Positions 7,796-63,777 of a DNA stretch of 64,000 nt are shown piece after piece. Below the pieces are notes generated by a model that was not told where the DNA came from, searched no databases, and saw only the letters and a program-made list of their open reading frames with translations. Source of the DNA: Acidobacteriota bacterium (lineage in GTDB: Bacteria > Acidobacteriota > Terriglobia > Acidiferrales > UBA7541); contig PMUS01000058.1 in assembly GCA_003166795.1 (NCBI GenBank), positions 14,498-78,497 on the forward strand. The letters are read 5' to 3'. Position numbers and translations under genes: made by a program. Numbering within the stretch: position 1 is the first letter of the stretch; every line of letters starts with the position of its first letter.

Positions 7796-8263
7796 TCAGT
7801 GCAGGCGGAAACGCTTGATGTGTTCTTTCAGGATGCAGGAATTCATGATCACGAACAGCCCGGCGCTCCGGGCGCGTTCCGCAGCTTGTGGATGGACGAC
7901 GCCTTCCTGCATCCACACCCCGCGCGCGCCAATCCGAATCGCGGATTCAACGATCTCGGGAACGAACTCCGAGCGGCGAAAAATATCCACGATGTCCACG
8001 TGCTCGGGGATGTCCTCCAGTCGGGCGTAAGACTTTTCACCCAACACTTCGGTCTCATTGGGATTCACCGGGATCACGCGGTATCCGGCGGATTGGAGAT
8101 ACTCGGCCACTCCGTAGCTCGGGCGGTGCCCGCGGCTGGAAAGGCCGACAACGGCGATGGTCCGGCTGCTCTTGAGAATTTCGCTGGCAGGGTCGCCGGC
8201 GGTAGGCGCCGGCGGACGACTCGAGCCGGGATCGGAGTTTTCGGAAGGCTTGCTCATTCGCAT
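7796..8263 (-). CDS. CoA-binding domain protein (YccU/CoA_binding_2 family)
   Basis: This 155-residue protein has a Rossmann-like CoA-binding fold: IAVVGLSSRGHRPSYGVAEY, VIPVNPNETEVLGEKSYARL, DIVDIFRRSEFVPEIVESAI and GVWMQEGVVHPQAAERARSA. These match the small stand-alone family resembling the CoA-binding subdomain of succinyl-CoA synthetase alpha. The biochemical role of the family is poorly defined. The first 25 residues are Pro/Ser-rich and probably disordered. A second ATG two codons in (8257) has a better-placed GAGAGG ribosome-binding site. Confidence 0.9.
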   Translation of the reverse strand: MRMSKPSENSDPGSSRPPAPTAGDPASEILKSSRTIAVVGLSSRGHRPSYGVAEYLQSAGYRVIPVNPNETEVLGEKSYARLEDIPEHVDIVDIFRRSEFVPEIVESAIRIGARGVWMQEGVVHPQAAERARSAGLFVIMNSCILKEHIKRFRLH

Positions 8264-8487
8264 CCTCTCATCAGTGCGTTTCGATTTTGCACGCTAAATG
8301 ACCGCGTGCCCGCCAATTTGCAGCCGCGGGGTTTTCGCGCGCGAATGGGCACAACCCCCGCTAGCGCCCAGACAACTACTGAGCGCACCGCAGCGGCGCG
8401 TTTCCCCTGAATCGTCCCTATGAAGCGACTGGGAAATCCCCCCGAGACGGATGCATCATACCGGATTTCGGCCAAAAGGAAAGTACG

Positions 8488-9258
8488 CTAGCTCGACCTC
8501 TTGCGAGGGAACCGGCGAGGTTTGCTGACGGGGCGCTTGCGCGCGGCCGGCTTGCGGACCGTGGCAATCTCATCCAATCTACGTTTGAGCGCGATCAGCT
8601 CCGCCGGCGATAGCGCGCGACGGTGGCCGGCAGCCAATGAATCGAGTTCCAGATTGGCGATCCGCGTGCGCTTTATTTTCTCCACGGGGTGGCCTGTCTG
8701 AAACAGTTTGTTCCGTAGCAGGTCGCGGCGGGCTTCCGATAGGGTCACTTCGTACCACGGCGCATCCTTGCCGCGAATCCGCGTGATGCGCGCGCCGCTG
8801 AGCCGGGCGAGCGATTCGATTTCAGCGAAGGTCAGCAGAGACTTGAGCTTCAGCTGATACGTTTGCGGCAGGTTGTGCGACTGCAAGATGCGATTGGCCA
8901 GGTCGCCGTCGTTCGTCAAAAATACCAATCCCGACGAATGATACTCAAGCCGCCCCACCGGATATACGCGCTCGGGAATTCCATACAGCAGGTCGCGCAG
9001 GGAAGGCCGGCCTTCGGGATCGCTCAGCGTCGAAACGAACTCGGTCGGCTTGTGCAGCAGCAAATAGACGCGCTCCGCTTCCGGCTTCAGCAGCTTCCCG
9101 GCAACTTTAATGTGATCGCGCGTCTGGTCGGCCTTGGTCCCGAGTTCCGTAACCACGTGGCCGTTCACGGTAATCAGGCCCGAGGAGATCATTTCCTCGG
9201 CCCGGCGGCGCGAGGTGATTCCGGCGCGCGCGATGATTTTTTGCAGGCGTTCTTCCAT
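8488..9258 (-). CDS. rluB: 23S rRNA pseudouridine synthase, RluB/RsuA family
   Basis: From ATG 9258 the protein has 256 residues, with an S4 RNA-binding domain (LQKIIARAGITSRRRAEEMI, about 1-60) and an RsuA-type catalytic domain. The catalytic Asp region is GRLEYHSSGLVFLTNDGDLA, in which the first part reads VGRLEYHSSGL where most relatives have GRLDxxTEGL. The usual nucleophilic Asp position is therefore Glu in this protein, which is unusual and may affect activity. The C-terminal tail is Lys/Arg-rich (KPAARKRPVSKPRRFPRKR). In many bacteria rluB follows scpA-scpB; here it lies downstream of scpB but separated by a VWFA-related gene. Confidence 0.88.
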   Translation of the reverse strand: MEERLQKIIARAGITSRRRAEEMISSGLITVNGHVVTELGTKADQTRDHIKVAGKLLKPEAERVYLLLHKPTEFVSTLSDPEGRPSLRDLLYGIPERVYPVGRLEYHSSGLVFLTNDGDLANRILQSHNLPQTYQLKLKSLLTFAEIESLARLSGARITRIRGKDAPWYEVTLSEARRDLLRNKLFQTGHPVEKIKRTRIANLELDSLAAGHRRALSPAELIALKRRLDEIATVRKPAARKRPVSKPRRFPRKRSS

Positions 9259-9322
9259 GAGGTTGGCGGCGTCCCTGCCGCAAGGCATACAGCTTAACGG
9301 AAACGGCGCGGATGGCGAAGGA

Positions 9323-11557
9323 CTACGGGTGCTGGCAGTGGCACAATTTCCAGAGGTAATCGAAAAACGCACGGCCGCTCGAATCCACCGGCACGTCGCC
9401 CGAATAGGCGGGCGCGCTTCCGCCCAGGTCAATCACCGCACGAGTGCCGGCCGGTTTGTTCAGCGTGAGCACGAGATTCGGCGTGGCGACGGAACTAATA
9501 TTATTCGAGATCAAGGATCCCGCCTCGCAGTGATAGCGTGCGCTAAAAAGATTCTGGAAAAGAGCAGGAGCCCCTTGGGCGACGGTCAGGTCGCCGTGGT
9601 ACGAGACACTGTCGCCGGTCCAATCGAGCATGCTCGAAGCGCCGGACGGAATGCGGAATTCAATATGAGTGGGCGGCGGAGCTGCAGGTGGAGGGGCGGG
9701 TTTGGGCGCCGGCGCCGCAGGCGGCCGGGCTGCCGCCGAAAAACTTCCTGCCGGTGATGCGGGCGCGGCGGCAACCGGGTCGCTGCCAAACGCGTGCGGA
9801 TGCGCGGGCACGTCCACCGAACCGGTCGCCCCGGACGGCACGTCCAGCACCGCGAAACGCAGCCGGCGATCATCCGGCTTCGCTTCGTAATCGAAAATAC
9901 TGCGAATCCCCGCGGCCTGCAAACCTCGATACGCCGCGTCGGACACTGGCCCCGAAAGGTCGCGGGGAAAGAACTGAAACGACGCGCCCTTCGGATCGTA
10001 TTCGCAGATGGCCATTTGAAGGCTGAGTTGACGATTTACGCCGCCCGGACCGAAGCTCAGCGAGTTAGGTGAAATCGTGAGGAGGTATCGAGCGCCACCC
10101 GCGTCAGTTGGGCTTTGTTTCGGCGTCAGGCTCTCGACGTTCATGGAAATGGAGGTGGAGGGCAATGGATCCATGCAAGCCTGCTGCAGAAGTTTTACGG
10201 GAGCCTGCTTGGCTTCCGCGTCCGGCTCCGTGGCGAAATAACCGCTGCGGTAGCGCAGCTTGATTCCGTGCTGGGTGCTCTTGACCGTGAGCTTATGAAA
10301 TCTGCCGTCCCATTTGACGTTCTCGGGATAGTAGCCAAGTTCGTAGTAGGTCGAACTATCGTCCAGCGCGCCCTGGACGCAGCCGGAAAGATCGTTGGTA
10401 TTCACGCAGGTTTTTCCGCCGGTTTCGTCGGCAAATTGTTGCATGGTGGCCTGCGCATCAAAGCGGGCGCTGTTGTCGCGACTGAGTGCCCCCCCCAGGC
10501 TGGCCCCCGGGTTGTTGCGATTGATATGCGGGTCCTGCCCGGCCGAGTATAGTTGGTTCACTTCAAGCCCGCGCGCGTCCACGGGATAGACCGCGATGCG
10601 CGCGTCGGTCAGCGCGTCGGAGGCCTTGCGAATTTTGTCCGCGTAGGTAGCAATCCCGGCGAACGAATCGCTGCCAAAATCCGCTGACGGCGCGATCCAG
10701 TCCGGAAACGATTCCGAAAACCAGAGCAGATTTTTCCGGCCCGGGTAGCCGCCCAGGAATTTTGCGATGGATACCATCGCATCCGTCGTCTCGTCCACGC
10801 GAAGAGCCATCTCGGCCTCGAATTCAGTTTTTTCGAAGTCCTCGAGCGCCAGCGTGGCCGGCGTCTCGGTGTCGTTGTTTTGATCCAATGCAACGTTCGA
10901 CGCGCTATTCGGATCATCTTGGGGGCTTTGCTCGATGTCGGGTGTTCGCAGCGTATGGTCCACGGCGGCGCGCAGCAGCGATGGATCGGTGGTGAAGCTC
11001 TGCACCACGTGCAGCGTGCGACCCAACACGAACACGGCGATGGGCGTCGAGGGCGGCAAGGTCTTCAGCAGCGCGAGCATATGCTGGTGAACGACCGACT
11101 GGTTCTGGATATTTGTGTTGAGCGCGTCCATCAGCATGACAGTTGGCGGCACGCGCATGCGCTCCGGCAGAAGGTTGGAATAGAGGTATGGGGTGCCGGG
11201 CGCCGACGCCATCAGAACGCTGGGAGCGCCCTGTGCCGGCGGCGCGGAGGCATCTATGAACTGAAATTTGACGATTTTCTGCTGGCCGGCGTGCTCCTCA
11301 GTAATTTGAAAGTCCTCAGCCTTGAGGCCGCGCGCGGCGTTGCCGTGCGAGTCGGTGGCGACCACGTCCACGGTAATCAAGCGCGTGTTGGTTTTGATGG
11401 GGCCGCCCGGTGATGGAACAGGTGCGGGCGTTTGCTGCGCCGCAGGCGCGCTCTGCTGCTGAGCTGCGGGAGGATTCTGCTGCGGCCCCGCGGGGGCCTG
11501 CGCGGAGGCGGCCACTGCGAGGAGCGCGAGGGCCGCCAAAATCTTAGCAGTGCGCAT
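9323..11557 (-). CDS. VWFA-related secreted protein (acidobacterial type)
   Basis: ATG 11557 gives 744 residues with a signal peptide (MRTAKILAALALLAVAASAQ). A Pro/Gln-rich spacer is followed by a domain opening with ITVDVVATDSHGNAARGLKA, the typical entry of the acidobacterial VWFA-related family. Further family landmarks are VMLMDALNTNIQNQ, PGRKNLLWFSESFPDW and RIAVYPVDARGLEVNQLY. The C-terminal third contains a Pro/Ala-rich linker and a beta-rich segment. Such proteins are exported and bind partners through a metal-dependent von Willebrand A fold; the ligand is unknown. The gene starts 10 bases after scpB and may be translated with it. Confidence 0.87.
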   Translation of the reverse strand: MRTAKILAALALLAVAASAQAPAGPQQNPPAAQQQSAPAAQQTPAPVPSPGGPIKTNTRLITVDVVATDSHGNAARGLKAEDFQITEEHAGQQKIVKFQFIDASAPPAQGAPSVLMASAPGTPYLYSNLLPERMRVPPTVMLMDALNTNIQNQSVVHQHMLALLKTLPPSTPIAVFVLGRTLHVVQSFTTDPSLLRAAVDHTLRTPDIEQSPQDDPNSASNVALDQNNDTETPATLALEDFEKTEFEAEMALRVDETTDAMVSIAKFLGGYPGRKNLLWFSESFPDWIAPSADFGSDSFAGIATYADKIRKASDALTDARIAVYPVDARGLEVNQLYSAGQDPHINRNNPGASLGGALSRDNSARFDAQATMQQFADETGGKTCVNTNDLSGCVQGALDDSSTYYELGYYPENVKWDGRFHKLTVKSTQHGIKLRYRSGYFATEPDAEAKQAPVKLLQQACMDPLPSTSISMNVESLTPKQSPTDAGGARYLLTISPNSLSFGPGGVNRQLSLQMAICEYDPKGASFQFFPRDLSGPVSDAAYRGLQAAGIRSIFDYEAKPDDRRLRFAVLDVPSGATGSVDVPAHPHAFGSDPVAAAPASPAGSFSAAARPPAAPAPKPAPPPAAPPPTHIEFRIPSGASSMLDWTGDSVSYHGDLTVAQGAPALFQNLFSARYHCEAGSLISNNISSVATPNLVLTLNKPAGTRAVIDLGGSAPAYSGDVPVDSSGRAFFDYLWKLCHCQHP

Positions 11558-11567
11558 CAAATGCTCG

Positions 11568-12290
11568 TTACGAGCGCTCAGACGTGCCGGCAGCCGCAGT
11601 GCGCGCCTGCTCGGAGCTTTCCGGCGCATCATCCGCGAGTTCGGCGAGATCGTTCGTTTCGCCGGACTCCCTGATTTGCGCGGCTTCCACCGAATCTTGT
11701 GACGCAGCGGCGCCCCCTTCGGGTTCAACGGGCGCGATTCCCGCGTCGGAGCCGAGCGCGGCCTGAGCGAGCTGCTCGAATTCCTTCAGGCTCGGTAGCT
11801 CGTCCAGATCGGAGAGGCCAAAGCGCATCATAAATTGCTTCGACGTGCGATAGAGGATCGGCCGGCCGATCACTTCCTTACGCCCCGCCGTGGTGATGAG
11901 CCGCTTTTCGAGCAGCGTCTTGATCACGCCGCCGACATGCACGCCGCGAATCTCGTTGATCTCGGGCACGGTGACCGGCTGCTTGTAGGCGATTACCGCG
12001 AGCGTTTCGAGCGCCGGCATGGTCAGGCGCAGCGGAGGCTGCAAACTCTTTATGAATTTGCGCACCACGTCGTGATGCTGCGGCTTGGTATAGAATTTCC
12101 AGCCACCCGCAACCTTGCGAACTTCGATGCCGCGCTCGTCGGTCTGGTAGGAAGCGACCAGCAGATCGAGCGCCGCGCGCGCCACCGACTTCTCCACGCC
12201 CAGAGCGTTTGCAATCTGATCGAGCGTGGCGGGTTCGTCCGCGGCGTAGATGATGGATTCCAGTCCAGCCTTGATATCTTCGGGGTTCAT
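11568..12290 (-). CDS. scpB: Segregation and condensation protein B
   Basis: The 240-residue ScpB has two winged-helix domains: LESIIYAADEPATLDQIANA through GGWKFYTKP, then RLTMPALETLAVIAYKQPVT, EINEIRGVHVGGVIKTLLEK and VIGRPILYRTSKQFMMRFGL. ScpB dimers bind ScpA and SMC to form the bacterial condensin that compacts and segregates chromosomes. After about residue 180 an acidic Ala/Glu-rich tail extends the protein beyond the conserved core. The gene lies 145 bases downstream of scpA, with a palindromic repeat in the gap. Confidence 0.96.
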   Translation of the reverse strand: MNPEDIKAGLESIIYAADEPATLDQIANALGVEKSVARAALDLLVASYQTDERGIEVRKVAGGWKFYTKPQHHDVVRKFIKSLQPPLRLTMPALETLAVIAYKQPVTVPEINEIRGVHVGGVIKTLLEKRLITTAGRKEVIGRPILYRTSKQFMMRFGLSDLDELPSLKEFEQLAQAALGSDAGIAPVEPEGGAAASQDSVEAAQIRESGETNDLAELADDAPESSEQARTAAAGTSERS

Positions 12291-12344
12291 CGTTGCGTTA
12301 CCTCAGGGTCAAAAGCAGCGGCTGTCGTGCGCGAAATCAAGAGC

Positions 12345-12421
12345 AGATCCCTCCCTGCGCCGCGCGCCTTCGCTTCGCGAAGGAAAAACAAATGCCGCGC
12401 GCGGCTCCGCTCGAAATGACA
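12345..12421. repeat. Dispersed palindromic repeat between scpA and scpB
   Basis: Read on the minus strand this is a GTCATTTCGAGCGGAGCC...GCGAAGCGAAGG...GGGATCT-type element. It contains a perfect 7-bp hairpin (CCTTCGC 12367-12373, GCGAAGG 12377-12383) nested in GC-rich arms (GCCGCGCGC / GCGCGCGGC). Related elements lie at 15408-15533, 48731-48785 and 63775-63838. All sit between genes, which fits a REP/MITE-like family. Confidence 0.55.
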
Positions 12422-12435
12422 ACGTAAAGAAAAAG

Positions 12436-13221
12436 TCACAGGTACTGCTCCTCGATTTGGGACATTGCGTCGGGTCCCGCAAAAACCGCGTCGAACATTT
12501 TGTGCTTCCGTAAGCCGATGTCTGCAAAAAGCTCCGATTGCACCAGAATTACCGCCTGCATGCGCACCATTTCCAGCACCGCCAGCAGCGCGACGATCAT
12601 GGCGTTGCGGGTCGTACAGGCCTCGAAGAATTCGATCAGCGAGACAGGGTCATCGGTCGTGGTCAGCCGCTGGCGCAGCAAGTCCATCATCTGCGCGATG
12701 GTTACAGTTTCGTGGTGCAGCTCGAACTTCGTGACGGTCTTGCGCCGCTCGAGTACCTGATGGAACGTCTGGATCAGATCCACCAGCGAGACCACCATCT
12801 CGCCCTCGATCGCGTCGCCCGTATAGAGCGCACGATCCGGGCGCGACCACACGTGCGCCTCGATCTGCTGCTTCTCGTACAAAAGCTGCGCGGCGTTCTT
12901 GAACTTCTCGTGCTCGAGCAGCCTGTGCACCAGCTCGTCGCGCGGGTCCAGCTCCTCCGGTCCCGCCAGCGGGTCGGCCGGCAGCAGCATTTTCGACTTG
13001 ATGTGAATCAGCGTCGCCGCCATGTAGATGAAGTCGGCCGACACGTCTATATCCAGCGTTTCGAGCTGGTGGAGATAATCCAGATACTGCTCGGTGACCT
13101 TGGCGATGGGAATATTGTGAATGTCCATCTCCTGCTTGCGGATCAAATCGAGCAGGAGATCGAGCGGGCCCTCGAAGGCCGGCACGTTGATGCGATACGG
13201 CGATGGCGACGCGGATGCCAA
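12436..13221 (-). CDS. scpA: Segregation and condensation protein A
   Basis: ScpA is the kleisin subunit of SMC-ScpAB. Conserved features are INVPAFEGPLDLLLDLIRKQ near the N-terminus, MDIHNIPIAKVTEQYLDYL, FIYMAATLIHIKSKMLLP, and a C-terminal winged helix (TRNAMIVALLAVLEMVRMQA). I favour the TTG at 13221: it follows the trpS stop by one base, has GGGGG 8 bases upstream, and gives the short N-terminus usual for ScpA (261 residues). An ATG at 13272 would add 17 residues and overlap trpS by 50 bases. The gene is probably translationally coupled to trpS. Confidence 0.92.
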   Translation of the reverse strand: MASASPSPYRINVPAFEGPLDLLLDLIRKQEMDIHNIPIAKVTEQYLDYLHQLETLDIDVSADFIYMAATLIHIKSKMLLPADPLAGPEELDPRDELVHRLLEHEKFKNAAQLLYEKQQIEAHVWSRPDRALYTGDAIEGEMVVSLVDLIQTFHQVLERRKTVTKFELHHETVTIAQMMDLLRQRLTTTDDPVSLIEFFEACTTRNAMIVALLAVLEMVRMQAVILVQSELFADIGLRKHKMFDAVFAGPDAMSQIEEQYL

Positions 13222-13222
13222 T

Positions 13223-14434
13223 TCAGTTTCCCCCGGCGGATTTGCGTGCCTGGTCCCACTGGAATATCGCATTCCGCACGCGCTTCATGGTGCGGCGCGC
13301 GGTCGCGTGGGCCTTCTTTCCGCCGGCGTCGAGGATATCCCAAACGCGCTGCGGATGCGCCTCGAATTCCTTGCGGCGTGCCTGAACAGGCTCGATCCAG
13401 GTGACCAGATTTTCGGCCATCAGCTTCTTGCAATCCACGCAGCCGATCGCCGCCGTGCGGCACTCGCTGTCGATTCGCGCGACCATTTCTTTCGGAGAGA
13501 ATAACTTGTGCCAGGAGAACACGGGGCAGATTTCAGGGCGCCCCGGATCGGTGCGTTTCACGCGTTGCGGGTCGGTGAGCATATTGCGGACTTTCGCGCG
13601 CACGTCGTCCGGCGAGTCGCTCAGCCAGATCGCGTTGCCGTAGGACTTTGCCATCCGGCGGCCGTCGAGGCCGGGCAGCCGCGGCGTTTCAGTAAGCAAG
13701 GGTTGTGGCTCGACCAGGTTCTCCTGTATGTGGATTCCGGCATTCGCAAAAACAGACTGGCGGTAGTCAATCGGCGATCGATGAAGCGAACTGAGCATCC
13801 TTCCCCACTCATCGGGTATGTGGGCGAGAGAAGGGTCGTTCTTTAGTTCCAGCGTTTGCCGCAACACCGCCATTTGTTTTTCGTTGGGCTGCTTCTTGAC
13901 CTCGAAGAACGCGGTGTTAAACCGCCGCACCACTTCTCGCGCCAGTTCGACGTGAGGAACCTGGTCCTCGCCGACAGGCACGAGCAGGTCCTGCCTCGAT
14001 TCTCCGTACATGACAATGTCAGCGGTCTGAAGGAGTGGATACCCGAGGAAGCCATACGTCCCGAGGTCGCGCTCTTTCAAATTCTCGATTTGCTCTTTGT
14101 AGGTGGGTACGCGCTCGAGCCACGAAAGCGGAGTGATCATGGAGAGCAGCAGTTGCAGCTCCGCATGCTCCAGCACGCTCGATTGAATAAACAGAGTTGA
14201 TTTCGCGGGATCGAGTCCCACCGAGAGCCAGTCAATCGCCACTTGAAGGGTATTTTCAGCGACGGAGGACGTATCTTCGTAATGCGTGGTGAGCGCATGC
14301 CAGTCGGCGACGAAGAAGAAGCACTCGTATTCTTCCTGGAGCTTGAGCCAGTTCTGGAGAGCGCCGAAATAGTGGCCGAGGTGGAGACGCCCGGTGGGCC
14401 GCATGCCGCTCAAGACTCGTTTGCGCTTCGCCAC
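13223..14434 (-). CDS. trpS: Tryptophanyl-tRNA synthetase
   Basis: This class I aminoacyl-tRNA synthetase charges tRNA-Trp. From GTG 14434 it has 403 residues. The HIGH motif is PTGRLHLGHYFGAL (HLGH at residues 18-21) and the KMSKS-like loop is RRMAKSYGN. Trp-pocket features include ERVPTYKEQIENLKERD and GYPLLQTADIVMYGESRQDL. A TTG at 14482 would add 16 residues that are not conserved; neither start has a good Shine-Dalgarno sequence. The protein is longer than typical bacterial TrpRS (about 330-340), mostly through the C-terminal helical part. Confidence 0.95.
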   Translation of the reverse strand: MAKRKRVLSGMRPTGRLHLGHYFGALQNWLKLQEEYECFFFVADWHALTTHYEDTSSVAENTLQVAIDWLSVGLDPAKSTLFIQSSVLEHAELQLLLSMITPLSWLERVPTYKEQIENLKERDLGTYGFLGYPLLQTADIVMYGESRQDLLVPVGEDQVPHVELAREVVRRFNTAFFEVKKQPNEKQMAVLRQTLELKNDPSLAHIPDEWGRMLSSLHRSPIDYRQSVFANAGIHIQENLVEPQPLLTETPRLPGLDGRRMAKSYGNAIWLSDSPDDVRAKVRNMLTDPQRVKRTDPGRPEICPVFSWHKLFSPKEMVARIDSECRTAAIGCVDCKKLMAENLVTWIEPVQARRKEFEAHPQRVWDILDAGGKKAHATARRTMKRVRNAIFQWDQARKSAGGN

Positions 14435-59672: not shown

Positions 59673-59914
59673 GCTTGCATCTTAAACACTCGGAGCACGT
59701 GCGGCAATTGGTTCGTGTCTCCAAAATCAACCCGCATCACCGGATGGCAACAAATATAAACGATGATCATTTAGTTTCCGAAGACCTGGGCGGCCTTTGG
59801 TTTCCCGCCGCGCCCTTCCCGTTAGAGAGTCCTCGGCGTAGAATCACCGCTCTAGTCGCAATTTTTTAAAGGCCCTCGCCGTATCTCCGGATAAGCACTC
59901 GCATGGGAGGGAAC

Positions 59915-60631
59915 ATGAGCTCGAATCGCAACCCAGGGCGCGTGGCCGGATTCTGGTACCTGCTCCTTTGCGTTATCGGCCCGCTGCGCCTCATCTATAT
60001 TCCCACCAAACTGTTCGTGACCGGGAACGCGGCCGCAACGGTCAACAACATCGCCGCTCATGAGTGGCTCTTCCGTTTCGGCATCGTCGGCGACCTGGCC
60101 TGCGGAGTGATTCTGATCTTCCTTGTGCTGGCGTTTTACCGGTTGTTCAAGGGAGTAGACCAGAATCTCGCTGTGCTGGTAGTGATCTTCGGCGGCGTGA
60201 TGCCGGCCATCATCAACTTCGTTGGCGTGGTGACTGATGCTAGTGCCCTCATGGTCATTCGCGGAGCCGATTTCTTATCCGTATTCGACAAGCCCCAGCG
60301 GGACGCGCTCGTACTCCTGTTCCTTCACCTGCGTGACCGTCAAAACACTGCCGCGGAGATCCTTTGGGGGGTATGGCTCCTCCCGTTAGCGGTGCTTGTG
60401 TACCGGTCGCGTTTCCTGCCGCGGTTCCTGGGCGTGTGGCTCGCCCTCGGCGGCGTCGCCTATATCATCCTGAGCCTTACGGGCGAACTGGTGCCGCAAT
60501 ACCAGCAAAAGGTGTTTGCCTATGCTCAGCCCGCCCTCTTCGGGGAGGTGGCGATCACGCTGTGGCTCGTCATCATGGGCGCCAGGCCGCCAGCGCTGGA
60601 CGCGAGGAGCCCATCGTTCCCGGCTGGTTAG
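59915..60631 (+). CDS. DUF4386 membrane protein
   Basis: ATG 59915, preceded by GGGAGGG, gives 238 residues. The protein has about six membrane segments: GFWYLLLCVIGPLRLIYIP, RFGIVGDLACGVILIFLVLA, LAVLVVIFGGVMPAIINFVG, ILWGVWLLPLAVLVYRSRFL, GVWLALGGVAYIILSLTG and GEVAITLWLVIMG. This pattern matches DUF4386, a family of unknown function. The start NPGRVAGFWYLL is characteristic. ATG 59903 would add four residues. Confidence 0.87.
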   Translation: MSSNRNPGRVAGFWYLLLCVIGPLRLIYIPTKLFVTGNAAATVNNIAAHEWLFRFGIVGDLACGVILIFLVLAFYRLFKGVDQNLAVLVVIFGGVMPAIINFVGVVTDASALMVIRGADFLSVFDKPQRDALVLLFLHLRDRQNTAAEILWGVWLLPLAVLVYRSRFLPRFLGVWLALGGVAYIILSLTGELVPQYQQKVFAYAQPALFGEVAITLWLVIMGARPPALDARSPSFPAG

Positions 60632-60933
60632 CCTTCAATATTGGCGTCTGCCGGCTCCTGCTTTAGGGGTCCCAGAAATGCCACCTATATCGCTAGCGGC
60701 AAAAAACGTCCGATGCAGAATATTTCCATTAGTACGAAAACGCTTAATGTCGAATGACCCTATCCCGTGCGGCACTGATTGATCCCACAACACAACCCAT
60801 TAGATATCAATCAGTTGCCCCTGAATGCGAAGCCCTGCTTACTGGTGCTGAACTTGCGTTGCTAGGAGCAATGAGTCACCTCGCCATTATCTGACGAGGT
60901 GCTGAGGGGCCATAATCCACTCGGGGGAGTCAC
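60632..60933. other. Spacer with a hairpin before the RiPP-like gene
   Basis: No gene is convincing here. The notable element is CACCTCG (60877-60883) pairing with CGAGGTG (60895-60901) around an 11-base loop. It ends 21 bases before the ribosome-binding site of the small peptide gene and lacks a T-run. It could terminate upstream transcription or structure the peptide gene's leader. Confidence 0.45.
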
Positions 60934-61047
60934 ATGAAAAAGTACGTTAAGCCGGCCCTGACAGGCCTTGGCCTGTTGCGGGATGTTACGAAATTCAGCG
61001 GTTGTGGCATCGAAACGCTTGGACGACGGGCAGAGTGCACCCTCTAA
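60934..61047 (+). CDS. Lasso-type RiPP precursor-like peptide (37 residues), orphan
   Basis: ATG 60934, four bases after GGGGGAG, encodes 37 residues ending at TAA 61045-61047. The first 22 residues begin MKKYVKPALTGLGLLRDVT, which fits the lasso-peptide leader signature Y-x-x-P-x-L-x-x-x-G followed by a conserved Thr. The C-terminal part is SGCGIETLGRRAECTL, with Cys24, Cys35 and Glu27. In lasso peptides the Thr at -2 precedes a core whose residue 1 is joined to an acidic residue at 7-9. That would place Phe21 first and Glu27 seventh, which is unusual. No precursor-binding protein, protease or cyclase gene is in the window. Confidence 0.7.
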   Translation: MKKYVKPALTGLGLLRDVTKFSGCGIETLGRRAECTL

Positions 61048-61062: not shown

Positions 61063-61108
61063 CTCCAGAAGGCGGGGAAACCCGACTTAACCTCCCCGCC
61101 TTCTGGAG
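61063..61108. terminator. 16-bp perfect inverted repeat after the RiPP-like gene
   Basis: CTCCAGAAGGCGGGGA (61063-61078) and TCCCCGCCTTCTGGAG (61093-61108) are perfectly complementary around a 14-base loop, 15 bases after the peptide stop codon. This is the longest perfect inverted repeat that I found. No T-run follows, so it may protect the 3' end of the short mRNA or act in termination with a factor. Confidence 0.6.
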
Positions 61109-61443: not shown

Positions 61444-63777
61444 GTGCGCGTTCTAACACCGACTGAAAACAAACGCTTCAACGAAATGATCGGCTTCGTA
61501 GGCCTGAGCCTGGCAGTCCTGCTGGCTCTGAGCCTGCTTTCGTATTCACCCCTGGACGCCTCGTTCAACGTCTCCGCGGCGCCTCCGGGTTCCGGCCCGG
61601 CGCGGAATTGGATTGGGCCCGTGGGGGCTCACACCGCCGATCTGTTTTTCCAGCTCGCGGGCTACGGCGCGTTTCTGTTTCCGATCGGAATGTTTCTGGT
61701 GGCCATGCGCTGGTTTCGCAGCCAGCTCTTGGTCGCGCCAACCGCGAAGCTGATCGGATGGGGTTTGCTGCTCCTCTCGCTTTCCGCGGAAATGACTCTC
61801 GTGCACATGCCGGATGTTCGCGGCGCGTTGCCGGCGGGAGGACTCCTCGGCAAGCTGCTCGCCCAGGGATTGCGCGCCGCTCTGAATCCGGTTGGCGCGA
61901 ACCTGGTTACGATCGCCACTCTGTTGACTGCCCTATTCCTGACCACCAGCTTTTCGTTCAACGCGGCCGCCAGATGGATGCAGAAACCGATGGCCAGCGA
62001 AGGCATGATCGGGCAGTGGATGGCACGCGTGACGGCCTGGCGAGAAGAGCGCGAATCGGTCCGCCTGCGCAAGCAGGTCGAGGACACCAGGATCGCGGGC
62101 CGGCGCCCCGTAGCCCAGCAGCGCGTTTCGACGAAGGAGATCGAGGAAGACGAAGAAGAAAAAGAGGAAGCGATTGATCACAAGGCCCCGCAAGGCGAAC
62201 GCGGACCGCACGTCATCCAGTTCCACGATCCGGTTCCGCCGCCCTCGACCAAGAAGAGCGCACCCGAGCCAAAAATCTCCCACTGGAAGACGAACTTCAA
62301 GCTGCCGCCGCTCAACCTGCTGCACACCGCCGAGCGCGGCGAAAAAATGGACGAAGCCGAGCTCAAGGAGTGCGCGCGCGCGATCGAGCAAAAATGCGCG
62401 GAGTTTGAAGTTGGCGGCCACATCACTCAGATCAATCCCGGGCCAGTGGTCACCACATTCGAGTTCAAGCCCGAGGCGGGGATCAAATACAGCCGCGTCA
62501 CCGGCTTGGGCGAGGACCTCTGCCTCGCGCTGCGCGCCGAATCACTTTTGATCGAGCGCATACCGGGAAAATCAACCGTCGGAATCGAAGTGCCCAACGT
62601 GCGGCGGGAAACCATTGCCCTGCGCGATGTGATCGAGTCGCCGGAATTTTCGCATTCCTCATCCAAGCTCTCGCTGCCGCTTGGAAAAGATTTGATTGGG
62701 CGCATCCGCGCGGCCGACCTGACGCAGATGCCTCACCTGCTGATCGCTGGCTCGACCGGCACCGGCAAGAGCGTCTTCATCAATTCCCTGTTGATGGGCA
62801 TGCTCTATAAATCCACGCCCGACGAATTGAAGCTGGTGCTGGTGGACCCGAAGCGCCTCGAACTGGGGCTTTATGCCGACATTCCGCACCTCTATACGCC
62901 GGTCGTCACCGACGCAAAAGTGGCGGCAAACGTCCTGCGAAACGCGACCCGCGAAATGGAGCGGCGATTAAAACTTCTCGCGCAACGCAGCGTGCGGAAT
63001 ATCGAGCAGTACAACCGCACGTTCGAGAAGGGGCAGTCGCTTTCGCTCTTTGAAAATGCCGAAGACGAGGAGCATCGCCCGCTGCCTTATCTCGTGATCG
63101 TGATTGACGAGTTGGCCGACCTGATGATGGTGGATACCAACGGCGTCGAGGAATCCATCACGCGACTGGCGCAGATGGCCCGCGCGGTTGGCATTCACCT
63201 GATCCTCGCGACGCAGCGGCCGTCGGTTGACGTCATCACCGGGCTGATCAAAGCCAATTTCCCCGCGCGCATTTCATTCCGCGTGGCCAGCAAAGTTGAC
63301 TCGCGAACCATTCTCGATACGAACGGTTCGGAGTCCCTGCTCGGCAAGGGCGACATGCTCTATTTGCCGGCAGGATCGTCGAGACTACACCGCATCCACG
63401 GCCCTTATGTCCATGAGAACGAAGTCGCGGCCGTCTGCGATTTCTGGCGCGATCAGGCCAAAGCCATTTACAACGAGGAGCTTCTCAGACCGCCCAAGGA
63501 TGAGAATGCAATGGGCGGCGGCATGGCCGATGGTGGAGACGGCGGAGAAGACGTTGACGACGATCTCTATCAAGACGCCGTACGCGTCTGCCTCGAAATG
63601 GGCCGCGCGTCCACATCAACGCTCCAGCGCCGCTTGCGGATCGGCTACGGCCGCGCCGCGCGCTTAATTGACCTCATGGAGAAGGACGGCATCGTCGGCC
63701 CCGCCGACGGCTCCAAGCCCCGCGAAGTCCTCAAGACGAAGGACTGGATGAAAGAATTCGACGACTCGATGAAGTGA
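61444..63777 (+). CDS. ftsK: DNA translocase FtsK
   Basis: GTG 61444 with GAGGAGAG 8 bases upstream gives 777 residues. Four N-terminal membrane helices (to about 180) anchor it at the septum. A short acidic linker (KEIEEDEEEKEEAID) leads to the motor: alpha domain HWKTNFKLPPLNLLHTAERG, Walker A AGSTGTGKSVFINSLL (about 436-451), Walker B LVIVIDELADLMM (about 550-562) and ATQRPSVDVITGLIKANFPA. The gamma winged-helix (ALDxLL-type VCLEMGRASTSTLQRRLRIG) recognises KOPS. It pumps chromosome DNA through the closing septum. Its linker is short compared with proteobacterial FtsK. Confidence 0.97.
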   Translation: MRVLTPTENKRFNEMIGFVGLSLAVLLALSLLSYSPLDASFNVSAAPPGSGPARNWIGPVGAHTADLFFQLAGYGAFLFPIGMFLVAMRWFRSQLLVAPTAKLIGWGLLLLSLSAEMTLVHMPDVRGALPAGGLLGKLLAQGLRAALNPVGANLVTIATLLTALFLTTSFSFNAAARWMQKPMASEGMIGQWMARVTAWREERESVRLRKQVEDTRIAGRRPVAQQRVSTKEIEEDEEEKEEAIDHKAPQGERGPHVIQFHDPVPPPSTKKSAPEPKISHWKTNFKLPPLNLLHTAERGEKMDEAELKECARAIEQKCAEFEVGGHITQINPGPVVTTFEFKPEAGIKYSRVTGLGEDLCLALRAESLLIERIPGKSTVGIEVPNVRRETIALRDVIESPEFSHSSSKLSLPLGKDLIGRIRAADLTQMPHLLIAGSTGTGKSVFINSLLMGMLYKSTPDELKLVLVDPKRLELGLYADIPHLYTPVVTDAKVAANVLRNATREMERRLKLLAQRSVRNIEQYNRTFEKGQSLSLFENAEDEEHRPLPYLVIVIDELADLMMVDTNGVEESITRLAQMARAVGIHLILATQRPSVDVITGLIKANFPARISFRVASKVDSRTILDTNGSESLLGKGDMLYLPAGSSRLHRIHGPYVHENEVAAVCDFWRDQAKAIYNEELLRPPKDENAMGGGMADGGDGGEDVDDDLYQDAVRVCLEMGRASTSTLQRRLRIGYGRAARLIDLMEKDGIVGPADGSKPREVLKTKDWMKEFDDSMK

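Follow-up and report, generated by a model that had tools for sequence, protein, structure and literature searches.

The linear polyphosphorylated peptides (LPPs) of Bacillota are matured by an RRE, an HprK-like kinase, an NTP transferase, a SpI-like peptidase and an exporter, with no cyclase (Popov et al., 2026; PMC13381572). Their precursors carry the motif YxxPxVLxHQxIxFETxxS, are cleaved after T-1 and are phosphorylated on S3, and in 2026 they were described as confined to Bacillota (PMC13381572). In the Bsf system of Bradymonas sediminis, which makes a phosphorylated lasso peptide, an RRE, a B2 protease and an HprK-like kinase act on one precursor, BsfA, in which a serine near the start of the core (S3) is phosphorylated (PMC10368454). 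The gene compared here with these systems lies in a 64-kb stretch of DNA, referred to below as the window, on contig C71 of an Acidobacteriota genome (G000, a MAG of 3.92 Mb in 115 contigs, 92.9% complete with 1.75% contamination). An earlier note on the window had taken this gene for an orphan lasso-type RiPP precursor with a strong ribosome-binding site, a YxxPxLxxxG...T leader signature and a predicted ring between Phe1 and Glu7. The features of the region are as follows.

59903..60631, + strand: DUF4386 protein gene, upstream neighbour, outside the system
60877..60901, + strand: small 5' hairpin, CACCTCG...CGAGGTG, recognized by eye, with weak pairing support and no compensatory pair noted
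60923..60929, + strand: Shine-Dalgarno sequence GGGGGAG, 4 nt before the ATG, read from the sequence
60934..61047, + strand: precursor gene, 37 codons, ATG start, product MKKYVKPALTGLGLLRDVTKFSGCGIETLGRRAECTL
60934..60993, + strand: leader (residues 1-20), containing T19 and the motif for RRE binding, Y4xxP7xL9 (alignments A2 and A8)
60994..61044, + strand: core FSGCGIETLGRRAECTL, with phosphorylation predicted at its second residue, S22
61063..61108, + strand: 3' hairpin of 16 bp directly after the gene (fold and alignment)
61444..63777, + strand: ftsK, downstream neighbour, outside the system

The open reading frame and its ribosome-binding site are as the earlier note described them, and so are the leader signature, with Thr 15 residues past Tyr, and the core, with F21 first after T-K, E27 as core residue 7 and Cys at precursor residues 24 and 35. 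The division of the peptide into leader and core, MKKYVKPALTGLGLLRDVTK|FSGCGIETLGRRAECTL, presumes cleavage after K20 by a B2-type protease, Thr being penultimate, according to the rules for lasso B2 proteases. The assignment of S22 as the phosphorylation site is predicted from S3 of the LPPs (PMC13381572) and S3 of BsfA (PMC10368454). Whole-genome searches placed all matches to B2 (PF13471), RRE (PF05402) and Asn-synthase (PF00733) on contigs other than C71, in agreement with the earlier statement that the window holds no RRE, leader protease or cyclase gene. The peptide scores under the cut-offs of Pfam DUF5972 and of the NCBIfam lasso-leader models, reaching 15 bits against lasso_leader_L3, for which the cut-off is 19. 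Scans of the gene for a consensus promoter and terminator gave nothing beyond shuffled sequences, and a known RNA element was discarded, Rfam having returned only a chance-level match to a trypanosome snoRNA. Carriage of the gene by a phage was likewise set aside, as the precursor alignment, run once against viral contigs, yielded no relative.

A search of the source genome with the leader revealed four further copies, on contigs C112, C36, C7 and C33 (peptides MKKYVKPSLTALGLLREVTKLSRCEIWCEVL, MKKYIKPSLTDLGLLRDVTKYSICLPIYSR, MKEYTKPSLKAHGLLREVTKYSGPTCDIRINEVVVCGKY and MKKYTKRGLTNLGLLREVTKLSHPCVPSDCKGAITRD), with E-values of 1.7e-7, 2.2e-7, 2.2e-4 and 5.5e-4. The five copies have a common leader and differing cores and stand on separate contigs, three of them short (7-15 kb), and a purine-rich Shine-Dalgarno sequence likewise precedes the other copies. 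Between C71 and C36 the leader codons differ at 15 nucleotides, which alter 3 amino acids where 9.2 changes would be expected (P=5e-5), and a synonymous excess was also found for C71 and C112 (P=0.001) and for C36 and C33 (P=5e-4); the most similar pair, C71 and C33, displayed no significant excess (P=0.21). Judged from these codon comparisons, not all of which are significant, the leader is under purifying selection. Since the frame has four paralogues in the genome and most leader changes are synonymous, it is, on sequence grounds, a genuine peptide precursor gene and no chance frame.

The earlier note had suggested that maturation enzymes might be encoded elsewhere. They are indeed present outside the window, in G000 and in every genome with strong leader matches; the search for PqqD/RRE and transglutaminase-like protease genes located two sets in G000, one without a cyclase on C112 and a lasso cluster on C65.

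L003:7424-7519 (contig C112): precursor of the C112 cluster
After the C112 precursor gene: PqqD-family RRE (PqqD, 67.9 bits)
8055-8522 (C112): lasso-type B2 protease (Transglut_core3, 54.3 bits; NCBIfam lasso_biosyn_B2 over cut-off)
8519-9523 (C112): HprK-like kinase (Hpr_kinase_C/HprK_rel_A similarity, below cut-off)
9495-10730 (C112): NTP_transf_5 nucleotidyltransferase (196 bits)
9524-13435 (L004, contig C65): canonical lasso cluster with RRE, B2, cyclase, precursor and HprK-like kinase

The C112 gene set recurs, in identical order, in three other Acidobacteriota MAGs, G008 (L030), G058 (L032/L037) and G235 (L038), one of which is a Candidatus Acidiferrales. An alignment search for the kinase found it in these four genomes only, among 399 of the class, and when 89 genomes of the bacterial family were searched with a ten-sequence leader model, strong matches were again confined to these four, so that cluster and leader family co-occur in four genomes, counted without correction for phylogeny. 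A leader match in a further genome, G082, was not accompanied by a precursor frame. The cluster kinase carries the full catalytic motif, H-x14-GxxGxGKS-x15-DD, with the residues and spacing of BsfK and other lasso kinases (PMC10368454). Cys73, His107 and Asp122 of the B2 protease, kept in the three members aligned, are inferred from its family to be the catalytic triad; the PDB holds no sequence match for either the kinase or the protease. No Asn-synthase match was obtained on C112, and no lasso cyclase was seen among the open reading frames around the clusters of G008, G058 and G235; all four genomes are MAGs, in which one could be missed. Around C112, frames resembling glycosyltransferases, acyltransferases and polymerases were read from the sequences, and the surroundings look like a polysaccharide locus. 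A locus of Candidatus Accumulibacter appositus (JEMX01000012.1, L040, 9371-11738) contains a PqqD-HprK fusion followed by an NTP_transf_5 gene; no B2 or cyclase was noticed in it.

Precursors stand apart from the cluster in G008 too, where one of three intact genes occupies a separate contig (L031, G008:C417); with those of G000, this documents precursor dispersal in two species. A search of a limited literature library gave no matching report of dispersed orphan RiPP precursors.

The 3' hairpin of the window gene folds at -33.7 kcal/mol (z -5.5), lacks a T run and is common to the C71, C112, C36 and C7 copies, i.e. four of the five in G000; in an alignment of these four sequences, 4 of its 16 pairs are altered on both sides and still paired. 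A genome-wide REP-like repeat was ruled out, as the pattern occurs elsewhere in G000 at or below the counts of the reversed control, for which reason the hairpin appears to be tied to precursor genes. On C112 it stands between the precursor and the enzyme genes, a position that would suit the production of more substrate than enzyme. A strong hairpin (z -5.0), unlike that of G000 in sequence, also follows the stop codon of the orphan precursor L031. The small 5' hairpin belongs to upstream sequence that recurs at the C33 copy, with 78% identity over 123 nt (leader included), and more weakly at C112, C36 and C7.

The window gene might alternatively be a decayed or unexpressed duplicate, copied beside ftsK and now without function. 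In 18 congeneric genomes no precursor frame was found ahead of ftsK (a few contigs offering only a short upstream stretch), which makes the window copy a lineage-specific placement and is compatible with such a duplicate. Decay does occur in these genes: directly before the RRE gene of G008 lies a degenerate precursor, RKTYRKPSITALGLLRSTSPVHEV (L030:7097-7144, G008:C270), which has no start codon, has lost VTK and suggests a remnant of precursor turnover. In the window copy, however, frame, Shine-Dalgarno sequence, start codon and hairpin are all intact, its leader shows the synonymous excess relative to C112 and C36, and the shared 3' hairpin has kept four double changes, so that a functionless duplicate is improbable.

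Conservation of the leader in relatives, on which the earlier note had made its proposal depend, is evident among the ten precursors: K2, Y4, G13, L15, R16, T19 and K20 are invariant (alignment A8) and the Tyr-to-Thr spacing is 15 in all. The cores after T-x are hypervariable in the same ten, with 3-19 residues, and the sole feature common to them is a [FYL]-Ser pair, with Ser at Thr+3 in seven and at Thr+5 in the three cores of G008. Two precursors of a sister genus (G058, L032:8738-8815; G235, L038:5252-5323) have an entire core of three residues, LSF and FSF, and would, by analogy, give a phosphotripeptide if cut after T-K.

These cores bear directly on the lasso proposal, according to which the RRE, B2 and Asn-synthase-like cyclase of C65 would act in trans to close a seven-residue ring between Phe1 and Glu7. 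The cluster on C65 is complete, although its cyclase gene includes unresolved bases, and could act on the window precursor; its PqqD and B2 proteins belong to the same families as those of C112. The window leader has the YxxPxL pattern with Thr near the cleavage site and resembles lasso_leader_L3, canonical lasso clusters (C65; G216, G230, G232, G278, G293) share a YxxPxLTxxGxxRExT-type leader with it, and an acidic residue is suitably placed in the window core (Glu7) and in those of C7 (Asp7) and C33 (Asp9). However, the leader is much nearer to its C112 counterpart (77% identity over 26 residues) than to that of the C65 precursor (KPYVAPVLTVHGTVRELTQ-ANQAGGKMDKGGHGFKIKTAF), and leaders carry GLLR[DE]VTK in the C112-type family versus GTVRELT[QH] in canonical lasso precursors. 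The G008 assembly (86% complete) carries its precursors with a single B2 match, the one inside the cluster. Half of the ten family cores have no Asp or Glu at positions 7-9 with any tail behind and are unable to form a lasso, while the six lasso precursors compared from this bacterial family lack [FYL]S and all combine Asp9 with a tail of 11-13 residues, which the family of the window gene does not. Canonical lasso clusters also possess the Asn-synthase-type cyclase that is missing from those of C112, G008, G058 and G235. The weak leader matches in G216, G230, G232, G278 and G293 were rejected as family members, being ordinary lasso precursors beside cyclase-type genes or fragments. On core composition and the missing cyclase, a lasso reading is rejected for the precursor family, and lasso formation by the window peptide through the C65 enzymes is unlikely. 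What stands of the original proposal is the assignment as a RiPP precursor whose leader is of the lasso type; its lasso identity is not upheld in the cyclase-less clusters of four genomes, and the family does not conserve the Glu7 ring geometry. The alternative offered at the time, a leader-like family with a different modification, fits the cyclase-less clusters and the cores best.

Cys occurs once or twice in each of the five G000 cores, which could point to a product centred on a disulfide or another Cys modification, made by the C112 set, with the Ser merely structural. The clusters of C112, G008, G058 and G235 revealed no Cys-modifying enzyme, and the cores LSF and FSF (G058/G235) and CVYSGQLPE (G008) indicate that Cys after Ser is no feature of the family, which argues against this explanation; we regard it as very unlikely.

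As in the LPPs, C112-type clusters combine a discrete RRE, an HprK-like kinase and an NTP transferase without a cyclase, in trans for the window copy; the precursors have a conserved N-terminus and a highly variable C-terminus; and the window peptide, counting Thr as -1, presents Y-16, P-13, T-1 and S+3, the YxxP...TxxS arrangement with Ser at Thr+3 being found in this copy and in 7/10 precursors overall. In LppB, Asp70 forms a hydrogen bond with the leader Tyr, and at the aligned position the RREs of all four clusters have an Asp; the clusters of C112 and G008 lie near polysaccharide-type genes. On the other hand, the window leader lacks the central VLxHQxIxFE part, the host belongs to Acidobacteriota and not to Bacillota, and the precursors are dispersed over the genome, with cores down to three residues. 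A B2 cysteine protease takes the place of the SpI-like LppS, no SipW-type peptidase (sigpep_I_arch) matching over the cut-off in G000, and no ABC exporter, MsbA-like or other, was seen among the open reading frames around the four C112-type clusters. With two defining LPP features, the SpI-like peptidase and the exporter, lacking in this way, the C112-type system is not counted as a member of the LPPs; both, together with Ser at Thr+5 in G008, also count against an LPP-like reading. As for Bsf, its cluster was described as one for a lasso peptide, with Ile at -2, whereas the C112-type family has Thr at -2, Ser at core position 2 and no cyclase.

Taken by analogy with these systems, the window gene probably encodes a precursor served in trans by the C112 set, from which removal of the leader by the B2 protease would yield an LPP-like linear phosphopeptide. 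From leader similarity and co-occurrence we infer that the service comes from C112 rather than C65. Five dispersed precursor genes would then feed one RiPP pathway, in which the C112 RRE would grip Y4xxP7xL9 of every copy, that of the window included, and present the precursor in trans to the HprK-like kinase. The kinase would phosphorylate, or perhaps polyphosphorylate, the invariant Ser just past the leader (S22 here), the B2 protease would subsequently cut after T19-K20 and the NTP_transf_5 nucleotidyltransferase may further decorate the phosphate. The predicted product of the window gene is a linear 17-mer phosphorylated on Ser2.

More tentatively, and with somewhat less than an even chance in our estimation, the family may constitute a new RiPP class of Acidobacteriota, in which dispersed, fast-diverging precursors are matured in trans by one set of enzymes without a cyclase (RRE, B2, kinase and nucleotidyltransferase) to give phospho- or nucleotidyl-modified linear peptides, tripeptides such as LSF and FSF included, and which would link lasso peptides and LPPs in evolution. 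The C112-type system is a candidate intermediate between the two, and places a cyclase-free set comparable to that of the LPPs, equipped with a lasso B2 protease, in a second phylum, Acidobacteriota. Searches of enzyme neighbourhoods would miss most of its precursors, four of five in this genome. With both the C112 set and a true lasso cluster in its genome, the organism offers a natural setting for testing how RREs tell two similar leaders apart within one cell.
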